DNA of 55,497 nt, taken from contig DATBTN010000059.1 in assembly GCA_036559195.1 (NCBI GenBank), forward strand, positions 1 to 55,497, written 5' to 3'. Below, in pieces: positions 4,086-52,208 of this stretch (the stretch's first letter is position 1; each line of letters begins with the position of its first letter). The position numbers and the translations under genes are program-made. Below the pieces are notes generated by a model that saw nothing but the letters and a program-made list of their open reading frames with translations, searched no databases and had not been told where the DNA came from. The stretch comes from Candidatus Baltobacteraceae bacterium (lineage in GTDB: Bacteria; Vulcanimicrobiota; Vulcanimicrobiia; Vulcanimicrobiales; Vulcanimicrobiaceae).

Positions 4086-4958
4086 TTGGCAACCTCTTTT
4101 ACAAACGACCCCTACGAACGGGCGCGCGCCGGCCTCAAGCACTTGCTCGATCGCGACCACGACCGGATCGGCGTATCGGGACGATCGCTCGTCTACGATC
4201 ACGGGCGGCGGACCCCGCGGGCGGCGGTGCTTTTCCACGGTCTCTCGGCAAGCCCCACGCAGTTCGCAGCCGTTGCCGAGGCACTCTACGCCCGCGGCTA
4301 CAATGTGCTCGTTCCGCGTCTCCCGCGCCACGGCTATGAAGACCGAATGTCCGATGCGCTTTCGCGGTTAACGGCGGCGCAGTTGCGCGCGAGCGCGACC
4401 GAGTCGTTCGAGCTCGCGCGCGGACTCGGCGAACACGTTACCGTCGTCGGTTTTTCTCTCGGCGGCTTGCTCGCGGCCTATTTGGCGCAACACGAACCGG
4501 TCGACTGCGTGGTTGCGGTCGCACCGTTCTTGGGCATCGTGCTCGTGCCGAGCCTCTTTCGCCGTCCGCTCACCTTTTGGGCGCTGCGCACGCGCAATCG
4601 CTTTGCCTGGTGGGATCCGTTTTTGCGCGACCGGCAACTCCCCGCGCACGGCTATCCGCGCTATTCCACGCACGCCGTAGCGCACGCGCTGACGATCGCC
4701 AACGATCTGCTCGAGGCGGCGCGCGCCGATTCGCCCCGCGCTCGACGAATCGTGCTCGTCACCAACGCCCGCGAGACGGCGATCAACAATCGCGCGGTCA
4801 ATCGGTTGCTCCAACGCTGGCGCAAGAAGAAGCCGGAGGCCGTACACGCCCATCGCTTCGACGATCTGCCGCTCTCGCACGACATCATCGAGCCGCTGCG
4901 CCATCCCGATATCTCGCAGCGCGTCTTGCGAGTCCTCGTCGAACTGATCGATCGATGA
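4086..4958 (+). CDS. Alpha/beta hydrolase (esterase-like), first of a pair
   Basis: A 290-residue serine hydrolase. FHGLSASPTQF forms the oxyanion region, the nucleophile elbow is GFSLGG with Ser124, and the C-terminal His is in SHDIIEP. No signal peptide is seen, so it is probably cytoplasmic. The TTG start at 4086 is preferred because AAGGAC lies 7 nt upstream; the in-frame ATG at 3978 would overlap rocD and add a low-complexity Arg/Pro stretch. The stop overlaps the tag start as ATGA. A paralogue lies just beyond tag, sharing segments such as FxWWDP, HGYPRYSTHA and VTNxxxxAxNN. Substrate unknown; possibly a carboxylesterase or acylglycerol lipase. Confidence 0.75.
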   Translation: MATSFTNDPYERARAGLKHLLDRDHDRIGVSGRSLVYDHGRRTPRAAVLFHGLSASPTQFAAVAEALYARGYNVLVPRLPRHGYEDRMSDALSRLTAAQLRASATESFELARGLGEHVTVVGFSLGGLLAAYLAQHEPVDCVVAVAPFLGIVLVPSLFRRPLTFWALRTRNRFAWWDPFLRDRQLPAHGYPRYSTHAVAHALTIANDLLEAARADSPRARRIVLVTNARETAINNRAVNRLLQRWRKKKPEAVHAHRFDDLPLSHDIIEPLRHPDISQRVLRVLVELIDR

Positions 4959-48318: not shown

Positions 48319-48852
48319 ATGGAAACGCAGATCCGCATCGTCCCGATCAACGCGATCGACCCCGGCTTCCTTTCGCGTTTGGGACTCTGTCTCGAAGAAC
48401 GTTTCTTATACAGCGCGTCGGTGCAGCGCGGGCTCGCCGTACCACGCAGCGCGGTCAACAGCGCGCGGCAGCAAATGTTCCTCTCGACGCTCACCTCGAA
48501 AGTGTTGCGCGAGTATCCCGACGACGACGGCCTGCTCCTCGCGATCACCGATTTCGACCTCTACAAAACGTCGCACCGCTTCATCTTCGGCGACGCCGAC
48601 GAGCAACGGCGCGTCGCGGTCGTTTCGCTGCATCGGCTTCGTTCGGAGTTCTACGGCGAAGAACCCGACGAGAACGTGCTCTTCCAGCGAACGCTCAAAG
48701 AATGCGTGCACGAGCTGGGCCACGCGCTCGGCCTCAAACATTGCTATAACGCGCGCTGCGCGATGTATTACTCGAACTCGATCTTCGAGAGCGACAACAA
48801 GATGTCGTACTACTGCGAAGCCTGCGACAAGCGCAGCCGCGCCCGGAGCTGA
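48319..48852 (+). CDS. amzA: Archaemetzincin-type zinc metalloprotease
   Basis: A 177-residue peptidase of the archaemetzincin family (M54), frequent in archaea and scattered in bacteria. The full signature is present: HELGHALGLKH (residues 131-141, three zinc His and the catalytic Glu), then Cys142, Cys147, Met149 (the Met-turn) and a later CEAC, which binds a second, structural zinc. No signal peptide is seen, so it is cytoplasmic. Physiological substrates are unknown. The start has no strong ribosome site. Confidence 0.93.
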   Translation: METQIRIVPINAIDPGFLSRLGLCLEERFLYSASVQRGLAVPRSAVNSARQQMFLSTLTSKVLREYPDDDGLLLAITDFDLYKTSHRFIFGDADEQRRVAVVSLHRLRSEFYGEEPDENVLFQRTLKECVHELGHALGLKHCYNARCAMYYSNSIFESDNKMSYYCEACDKRSRARS

Positions 48853-49000: not shown

Positions 49001-50650
49001 ATGATCCAGGCTCGTCTGACCGCCTGGCGTTCGCGCCTGGGGAATCCCGCACGCGCGCTGCTCGCGATTGCAGCGGCGCTGCTCTGCGCGATCCTCGATG
49101 CGTATGGTTCTAAAGTCCCATCGTTTGACCTCGTGCTGCTGGCGATCGTGGCGGCAACCGCTGCCGTTGCCGGGCTCCCGTTCGGACCGGCGCTGGCGGT
49201 TGCGGCCGGTGCGATCGATTACGCCGTGCGCGCGCACCAACATCGCGGCGGCGCTCTCGGTTCGGGATTTCTACTCGCGCTCGTCGGCGTGCTGATCGCG
49301 ATGCTCGTTGCGACCGACGCCGGCGATAGGGCCTCCGACGGTGCGGGCGACTCGGCGCCGCACTCGCTGCGCACGGCCGGCGGACTCGCATCGAGCGTCG
49401 CCGCGCTCGCGTCGGGCATCCGCGAAGTCAGTCAGGGCGATTTCACCAAGAATTTGGCCGTCTCCGACGGATCGCTCGCCGATCTCGCGATCGCGCTCAA
49501 CAAATTGATCTTCGGCATGCGCGAGTTTCTCGGCGGGCTGCACGAGAGCGCCGCCCAGCTCGGTTCGGCCGGCGGCGAACTCAACGCGACGGCTTCCACG
49601 GCGCTGGCCGTAATCGAAGGCGCGTCGCTCGCGCAAGGTCAGCTCGACGAAGGCATCGGCGAACAGTCGCGGATCGTTGGAAGCGCGACGAGCAAAGTGA
49701 CGCAGCTGACGCAAACGATCTCCGCTATCGCCGCGTCGGCCGAAGAACAGACGCGCAGCCTCGACGAGACCTCGCTCGCCGTTACCAACATGGCGAGTTC
49801 GATCGAGCAGGTAACGGCGCAGGTCGATTCGCTCGCCTCGATCTCGGCGGAGACGTCGCAGACGGCCGAGCGCGGCGGCGTTGCGATCCACACGATCGTC
49901 GAAGGGATGGACACGATCCGCGCGACCATCGGCGATCTCGGTCGCGACATCGCGATGCTCGGCAGCAACTCCGAGCAGATCGGCGACATCGTAAAAGTGA
50001 TCGACCGCATCGCGGAGCAGACGAATCTACTGGCGCTCAACGCCGCCATCGAAGCGGCTCGCGCCGGCGAGCACGGCCGCGGTTTCGCCGTCGTCGCGAC
50101 CGAGATTCGCAAACTCGCCGACGGAAGCGTGCAGGCGACCAAAGAAATCGCCGGCCACATCCTCTCGACGCAGAACGTGATCGCGGAGGTCGTTCGCGCG
50201 ATGGAACGCCTAACGGCGCGCGTTGAAGATAACGTCGGCAGTACGACCTCGGCGTCGGGCGCCTTGCGCGAGATCGTGCAGGCCGTGCTCTCGGCCAATC
50301 AGCAGATCGGCGAGATTTCGTCGGTCGCGCGGGCGATGAGCAGCAACTCGTATCAAGTGATTCGTTCGATCGAAGAGATCGCGAAATCGGTCCAGCTTAA
50401 CGTGACAGCCACGCAAGCGATGTCGACGCATTCCGACGCGGTGACGTCGGCGTTCGAAAATATCGCCTCGATCTCGCAGACGAACGCGTCGTCAGTCGAA
50501 GTCCTCACCTACGTGAATAAGGAAGTAACGGACGCCGCCCAGCGCATTTTGAACTCGGTCGAAGAGATGAACGAATCGGCCGCACGGATCGACAGCCGAC
50601 TCCGGCAGTTCAAAGTGAGCGACCGCGGCGCGCAAGGAGACACGGTATGA
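49001..50650 (+). CDS. Methyl-accepting chemotaxis-type signalling protein without a sensor domain
   Basis: A 549-residue membrane protein. Three hydrophobic segments lie in the first 105 residues with only short loops, so there is no classical periplasmic ligand domain. A long helical region follows, with the conserved hairpin tip [20 protein letters not shown] from residue 339, which contacts CheA and CheW. No CheR-docking pentapeptide is seen at the end. ATG 49001 has GGGAG 7 nt upstream; GTG 48977 is the alternative. The stop overlaps the ATG of the sensor-like gene that follows, suggesting the two are made together. Confidence 0.85.
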
Positions 50651-51984
50651 TGATGAGTCTGCGTTTTCGCCTGCTCGGCACGATCGTCGCAGCGATCGTC
50701 CTCTTTTTCTTGATCAGCGTCATCGCGGCGCGGGTCACGCTGCAGAAGGACTTGAGCGCCCTCGGGCGCACCGAGGCCACCAACGGCTCGAACGCCTTCG
50801 GCGGCTATTGGGACTCGCGCAAAGAGCAGGTTCGATTGCTCATTACGCAAGACGCGGTCTCTAACGCGCTGCGCAAATCGCTGCAGTCGCACGATGGCAA
50901 AGCGCTGCAGGACCAGCTCTCCAACATCGCGCGAACCTCGAACCTCTCGTTCCTCACCATCGTCGACGGCAAAGGCCGCGTGGTCGCGCGAGCCAACGGC
51001 ACGAATCTCGGCAGCCTCGGCGACGAGAGATACGTGCAGCGTGCGCTCGGCGGCGAAACCGTCAGCACGGCCGCCTTGTTGGCGCCGAACGAATTGCAAG
51101 GCGAAGGTCTCGCCGCGCAGGCGGTCTCCGACGTGAAGGGTCCCGATGGAAAGACCGTCGAGCACCTAACGCGCGGACTCGCGCTCGTTGCGGCCGCGCC
51201 GATGTCGGACTCGAACGAGCGGACGCTCGGGGCGATCTATGGCGGCGTGCTGATGAACCATTTCTACGATCTCGTGGATCAAAGCACGCACGCTCTTGGA
51301 GGGCAGACGGCGCTGCTCGACGGCGATGCGATCGTGGCATCGACGATCAGTCAGGCCGACGGCACCCGCGTGGTCGACACGCAAGTCGCTCACGCCGCCG
51401 ACGCGAATAAGGTCCAAGACGATTACGTGGGCAGCGACACCGAGGGCGGTACCGAGTACATGGCCCGAATCGATCCGATCTCGAACGATCAAAACGAGGT
51501 CGTCGGAGCGTTTTGGTACGGTCTGCCGATGGCGCAGATTACGACGATCCAAAACCATCTGATGGAAACGTTCGTGCTGTGGGGCCTGGTGGCCATGGCG
51601 ATTGCGCTTTTGCTGGCGGTGCCGATCGTGCGGCGCCTCTCGTTAGCGCTGGCGCGCCGGAGCGCGCAAGTCAGTTCGGCAGCGAAGGAACTCGGCGTTA
51701 CCATTGTAGGCGGTGAGGTCTCCGGCGATCACGTGGCGGCAACGAAAGCTGCAGTCGAGCGCTCCGGAGCCGTGATCGACGACATCGCGGCCAACGGCGC
51801 GACGCCCGCCAAGATGGCCGATCTCAAAGCGCTCAACGAGGAACTCGTCGGCGATATGGTCGTCATCGACACGCTCTCACACGAAATGAGCGGACGCCTG
51901 CAGCAGGCCGTTACGCGCGTCGCCGAGCTCAAAGACGTCGCGCGCGGGCTCGATAAACTGGTTCACGGCGCGCCGGCGACGTAG
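50647..51984 (+). CDS. dCache-like membrane sensor lacking a signalling domain
   Basis: A 445-residue protein with an N-terminal membrane helix (about 8-28), a large periplasmic region (about 29-305) of double-Cache type ([21 protein letters not shown], then a second half with [10 protein letters not shown] and [10 protein letters not shown]), and a second helix (about 312-331). The remaining cytoplasmic part is helical but has no kinase, GGDEF or MCP signalling motif. Its ATG overlaps the stop of the chemoreceptor gene, so it probably supplies the sensing half of that receptor. The ligand is unknown. Confidence 0.75.
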
Positions 51985-51992
51985 ACGACATC

Positions 51993-52208
51993 GTGGCAGA
52001 CGTCATTCTGTTCTTCGCGAGCAACGCCGATACGATGATCGCGACCAAGGCGCTAAAAGACTCCGGAATCGTGGCGAAGATGATTCCGAAGCCGGCGACC
52101 CTCAGCGCATCGGCAAACCTCTGCTTAAGCTTGGACGGAAGTTTGGAGTCGCAAGCCGTCGCGGCGCTCTCCGGTGCAAACGTCGCGCTCGGCGGCGTCG
52201 CGAAATAA
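51993..52208 (+). CDS. Small DUF3343-like protein
   Basis: A 71-residue protein reading like the DUF3343 family of putative sulfur or selenium carriers: VILFFASNADTMIATKAL followed by GIVAKMIPKPATLSASANLCLSLD. The conserved patch with a Cys in true members is altered here, with one Cys in NLCLSL. It begins at GTG 51993, 9 nt after the sensor gene stop, so it may be co-translated with the two-gene sensor unit. Its role is uncertain. Confidence 0.55.
   Translation: MADVILFFASNADTMIATKALKDSGIVAKMIPKPATLSASANLCLSLDGSLESQAVAALSGANVALGGVAK

Follow-up and report, generated by a model that had tools for sequence, protein, structure and literature searches.

A sensor-less chemoreceptor transducer and a separate double-Cache sensor encoded as a conserved gene pair in Eremiobacterota

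The usual account of how chemoreceptors signal across the membrane is an unbroken chain that begins at the ligand domain, passes through TM2, and reaches HAMP. In canonical double-Cache (dCache) chemoreceptors such as PctA, Tlp3/CcmL, and TlpA, sensor and signalling domain lie on one chain. A few receptors divide these tasks between two proteins. CetA/CetB is a bipartite energy-taxis receptor of Campylobacter jejuni, with a counterpart, CetBA2, in Magnetospirillum gryphiswaldense that is encoded by overlapping genes and whose components have been shown to interact (PMC2628428, PMC12442639). There, an MCP with two membrane helices, HAMP, and signalling domain is served by the small PAS protein CetB, which is cytoplasmic and, in M. 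gryphiswaldense, depends on FAD. Sensory rhodopsins, seven-helix retinal proteins without a Cache domain, form 2:2 complexes with Htr transducers carrying two membrane helices, and the contact includes the membrane-proximal/HAMP region (PMC3274258). Among open-access publications, where a case from a subscription journal may have been missed, we found CetA/CetB-type receptors only and no split or two-protein Cache chemoreceptor.

We analysed a locus in a 55,497-nt stretch (positions 1-55,497 of contig DATBTN010000059.1; hereafter the window) of a Candidatus Baltobacteraceae bacterium (GCA_036559195.1), in which genes for an MCP, a Cache sensor (SENS), and a small DUF3343-like protein (SeS) follow one another on the forward strand (Table 1). 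As in CetA/CetB, a sensor-less MCP with membrane helices, a HAMP-like segment, and a signalling domain stands beside an adjacent gene for a sensor without an output domain. The sensor here, however, is an outward-facing transmembrane double-Cache protein rather than a cytoplasmic PAS protein, the MCP probably has four membrane helices rather than two, and a DUF3343-like third gene is present. With sensory rhodopsin/Htr the locus shares a membrane sensor and an MCP-like transducer on separate polypeptides; its sensor has two transmembrane helices and a dCache domain in place of a retinal-binding seven-helix bundle. Canonical dCache chemoreceptors have the same extracytoplasmic fold and signalling-domain class, joined on one chain instead of divided between two genes. 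By analogy, the proposed receptor would work like CetA/CetB (PMC2628428, PMC12442639) and sensory rhodopsin/Htr (PMC3274258), and it is a member of neither because its sensor is of a different kind.

Table 1. Features of the MCP-SENS-SeS locus in window coordinates (genes are given from start codon to the end of the stop codon)
Feature	Position	Strand	Basis
Sensor-less MCP transducer, 549 aa (ATG start)	49001..50650	+	PF00015 E 7e-44; 28 orthologues aligned
MCP membrane region, aa 15-104, probably four helices	49043..49312	+	AF2; hydropathy; mean identity 0.35
Degenerate HAMP-like segment of MCP, aa 131-180	49391..49540	+	HAMP E 0.12 in window copy, 0.0094 in one orthologue; conservation 0.69
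MCP signalling domain, hairpin tip invariant	49841..50386	+	Pfam; orthologue alignment
Near-invariant 15-residue patch in MCP C-terminal arm, aa 496-510	50486..50530	+	Mean pairwise identity 0.94
Shine-Dalgarno-like AAGGAG, 7 nt upstream of sensor start	50634..50639	+	Sequence reading
ATGA stop/start overlap of MCP and sensor genes	50647..50650	+	4 nt in 27/27 relatives
Double-Cache membrane sensor (SENS) without output domain, 445 aa (ATG start)	50647..51984	+	Pfam; AF2; structure comparison
Extracytoplasmic double-Cache domain of sensor, aa 36-300	50752..51546	+	Pfam; AF2; structure comparison
Cytoplasmic helical hairpin of sensor, aa 338-440, with conserved segments aa 346-366 and 403-441	51658..51966	+	AF2 (moderate confidence); conservation
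Small DUF3343/Se_S_carrier-like protein (SeS), 71 aa, without the family's conserved Cys (GTG start)	51993..52208	+	PF11823; conserved third gene; Cys comparison

The product of the first gene matches the MCP signalling domain with 150 bits against a cut-off of 34.6 (aa 281-462), and the CheA/CheW-binding hairpin tip is invariant across the orthologues, in agreement with the first-pass annotation of this gene. Its reading of the protein as devoid of a periplasmic sensor also holds: Pfam scans of the window copy and its orthologues revealed no ligand-binding or sensor domain, and only short loops join the membrane helices in the AF2 model. The ligand domain that a canonical transmembrane MCP carries in the same polypeptide as its signalling domain is thus absent. 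The number of membrane helices needs revision. Three had been proposed, whereas the AF2 model (pLDDT mostly 70-85, pTM 0.33) places four helices in membrane range near the N-terminus (residues 15-36, 42-57, 61-79, and 85-104), followed by a low-confidence linker and then helix up to residue 535. Four helices, which also fit a positively charged cytoplasmic N-terminus, are therefore the probable count. HAMP is weakly recognizable. Mean pairwise identity is low in the membrane region and higher in the HAMP-like segment, and the patch in the C-terminal arm stands out beside the universal hairpin tip.

The second gene encodes a protein with Pfam matches to sCache_3_3 (E 3e-13) and also to sCache_3_2, Cache_3-Cache_2, and dCache_1; sCache_3_3 is matched by 30/30 sensor homologues and dCache_3 by 18/30. 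In the AF2 model (mean pLDDT 83), TM1 continues as a long helix ahead of two PAS-like lobes, and TM2 leads to an antiparallel two-helix cytoplasmic hairpin modelled with moderate confidence (block pLDDT 53-76). This is the layout of a dCache sensor, with a long N-terminal helix and two PAS-like lobes between two transmembrane helices. Structure comparison of the ectodomain (aa ~30-300) retrieved the double-Cache sensors DctB, LuxQ, KinD, PctA, and TlpA, with both lobes matched in DctB, LuxQ, TlpA, and PctA; the distal lobe alone aligned with CitA at Z 18.2 and an rmsd of 2.2 over 128 residues. The earlier assignment of a double-Cache-type sensor with two membrane helices is thereby borne out.

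That this sensor lacks an output domain, also proposed earlier, is correct insofar as no Pfam output domain, hidden or otherwise, was found in any of 30 homologues. It overlooks a conserved cytoplasmic helical hairpin of ~110 aa. The two best-conserved segments of the sensor are both cytoplasmic, with mean pairwise identities of 0.84 (aa 346-366) and 0.73 (aa 403-441) vs 0.59 for the ectodomain, so the protein is not empty on the cytoplasmic side and carries a short conserved module outside every Pfam family. Candidate identities for parts of the cytoplasmic region were rejected. A match to AIRS (PF00586) in the juxtamembrane segment scored above the cut-off for a fragment, yet occurred in 1/30 homologues and is spurious. 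An 11-residue segment resembles an H-box, but homologues have Gln or another residue in place of its His, and that His sits in the second helix rather than the first.

The antiparallel hairpin resembles a shortened MCP in the AF2 model, which raises the alternative that the sensor, as a degenerate chemoreceptor, enters mixed dimers or trimers with the MCP in the array through its short coiled-coil hairpin, modulating the MCP rather than feeding it. A weak profile match between the sensor tail and the MCP C-terminal arm points the same way. This match falls short of significance (hhalign E 0.028, probability 1.8%), and homology is not claimed; moreover, the hairpin tip varies in sequence and length among sensor homologues, unlike the MCP tip. 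We regard a mixed partnership of this kind as quite improbable.

The distribution of the two genes argues for a functional pair. Strong sensor matches occurred in 29 of 98 genomes searched, mostly derived from metagenomes, and the MCP occurred in the identical 29, all within the window's own taxonomic family (Eremiobacterota). SeS was found in the same 29 genomes and in one more (G060), where a lone homologue (57% identical; L138:1899-2105) has no MCP or sensor nearby and is a paralogue or a relic. When 84,980 species representatives were scanned by pattern, 33 sensor loci emerged; their records are titled Candidatus Eremiobacterota or Eremiobacteria or as the MAG of a "bacterium". Contig breaks aside, the fetched loci of relatives read acpS - archaemetzincin - [sensor 2] - MCP - SENS - SeS - birA - ndk - eno; in the window, too, a gene for an archaemetzincin-family metalloprotease (48319-48852) lies directly upstream of the MCP.

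The MCP-SENS-SeS order, whose conservation had been put forward as a check, is kept down to ~46% sensor identity. Insertions of >400 nt flank the trio between archaemetzincin and MCP (10/28 loci) and between SeS and birA (7/27) and never fall inside it. The ATGA overlap noted earlier between the MCP and sensor genes can be read directly in the sequence and measures exactly 4 nt at 27/27 loci with an assembled junction, though the flanking nucleotides vary. The gap between sensor and SeS ranges from 2 to 175 nt among loci and is 8 nt in the window, not 9 as first given. Because such overlaps are common in operons and are vertically inherited, the 27/27 count is supportive and not proof; tight linkage and vertical inheritance inflate both the co-occurrence and the overlap statistics. 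Conservation of the cassette across about 20 genera shows that the arrangement is not due to chance.

Two overlapping genes in place of the usual single one could, taken alone, mark an ordinary MCP that was frameshifted, split, or misassembled. That explanation is excluded because the signalling half comes first, in reverse of the MCP order, because each half has its own membrane helices, and because both are conserved intact in 27 loci. A clear fused ancestor, with Cache sensor and MCP on one chain, was not found among the weak distant sensor matches, since one of the genomes concerned (G005) has an ordinary Cache MCP there and two others (G081 and G093) have long ORFs that lack the MCP tip.

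Across genomes, the pair goes together with the chemotaxis system. The window genome encodes CheA, CheW, and CheR (the last on contig C63), which settles an earlier question about its CheA/CheW. The cheA-cheW genes (L055, contig C39) directly follow fliR-flhB-flhA-like and PilZ-like genes, named from their translations rather than by family search, and so the system probably serves a flagellum. Across 39 genomes of the same family, the pair is present in 18/23 CheW-positive and 0/16 CheW-negative genomes (Fisher p 1e-6, uncorrected for relatedness); all sampled pair-bearing genomes possess CheW. Besides the cassette MCP, the window genome encodes just one other, of ordinary type (L070:4022-6070, contig C25), which has an extracytoplasmic sensor region of its own and adjoins ftsA-ftsZ-like genes.

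Duplications at the locus bear on its possible modularity. In four genomes, a second, diverged sensor (about 31-36% identical) lies directly upstream of the shared MCP (L042:3876-5126, L047:7741-9012, L049:8985-10241, and L064:2738-4015). A fifth genome retains a remnant (L046, ~4181-4444). Between sensors 1 and 2, identity is 0.31 in the ectodomain and 0.64 and 0.55 in the cytoplasmic segments. In genus g7, SENS and SeS are duplicated in tandem as a unit downstream of the MCP (L045 in G006:C110; L036 and L069 in G040). Both patterns fit interchangeable sensors that share one docking module and one transducer.

The g7 duplications, in which sensor and SeS multiply as a pair without the MCP, are also compatible with co-expressed but functionally separate proteins: the MCP, whose own four-helix membrane region could sense, would monitor an internal or membrane state (energy or membrane stress), with the Cache protein and its small partner forming an unrelated sensory unit. 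Such a unit would have a sensor with no output domain of its own, and the second sensor likewise adjoins the shared MCP; sensor and MCP are, besides, always jointly present or jointly absent. Functional separation is accordingly unlikely in our view, if less so than the mixed partnership considered above.

We favour the interpretation that MCP and sensor form a two-subunit membrane chemoreceptor, perhaps with SeS as a third subunit, and assign it a probability of roughly three in four. The first-pass annotation, which had arrived at a two-subunit receptor, named two findings that would speak against it, homologues usually occurring alone and a hidden output domain in the sensor gene; neither was encountered. 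Because the sensing and signalling halves come from two separate, always-paired genes, the cell probably assembles this receptor from parts. The MCP would act as the transducer, with a four-helix anchor, a HAMP-like segment, and a CheA/CheW-binding hairpin but no ligand domain of its own; the second gene would supply the ligand-binding subunit, which would span the membrane with two helices, expose its double-Cache domain on the outer side, and hold the conserved hairpin in the cytoplasm. The ATGA overlap would couple translation of the two genes, keeping their products in step.

Binding of a ligand in the Cache domain would then shift TM2 and the cytoplasmic hairpin of the sensor. For this hairpin, the most likely docking site on the MCP is the HAMP-like/upper coiled-coil region rather than the membrane helices; docking there would alter the kinase-control state of the MCP and thereby signal through CheA/CheW to the flagellum. 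Judged from conservation, docking in the cytoplasm is more likely than docking within the membrane because the MCP membrane helices are poorly conserved (0.35), which counts against a specific helix-helix interface. The best-conserved sensor segments are, by contrast, cytoplasmic and are also those best kept between paralogues flanking one MCP, which supports the pairing.

SeS, described earlier as a small DUF3343-like protein, indeed matches PF11823 (30.2 bits against a gathering cut-off of 25; E 3e-7). Its orthologues share 62-77% identity with the window copy, and a few score below the cut-off. DUF3343 proteins have been assigned a putative part in Se/S trafficking and have a single Cys that is highly conserved (PMC5322559). 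In the cassette proteins, this Cys is Ala or Ser, the canonical C-G motif reading A/S-N (in a comparison with three canonical sequences only), and the gene neighbours a receptor rather than selenium genes. Most copies retain another Cys a few residues downstream, where three (L060, L061, and L063) have Ala. Given the altered motif and the loss of the later Cys in these copies, the sequences make a role as Se/S carrier unlikely. No solved structure clearly related to SeS by sequence was found. SeS is probably a cytoplasmic accessory subunit, an adaptor or stabilizer. A more elaborate, tentative possibility, to which we give less than even odds, is a three-component modular receptor: the sensor-less four-helix MCP would be a shared socket, Cache subunits would plug in through their cytoplasmic hairpins, and the DUF3343-derived protein, no longer an Se/S carrier, would be the cytoplasmic coupling subunit. 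Lineages would then alter their sensing by duplicating the sensor, as sensor 2 or as a sensor-SeS pair, and not the whole receptor.

The proposed Cache-based bipartite chemoreceptor, confined to one lineage, would be new beside the known bipartite receptors. To the cytoplasmic PAS sensors (CetB) and rhodopsins that serve these it would add Cache domains, which have been called the largest superfamily of prokaryotic extracellular sensors (PMC4822843). Separate ligand and signalling membrane proteins would break the usual chain from ligand domain through TM2 to HAMP, and in such a receptor the coupling step becomes testable as a protein-protein contact. The cassette also offers a natural design for sensor swapping and suggests that a DUF3343 relative has a role outside selenium metabolism.
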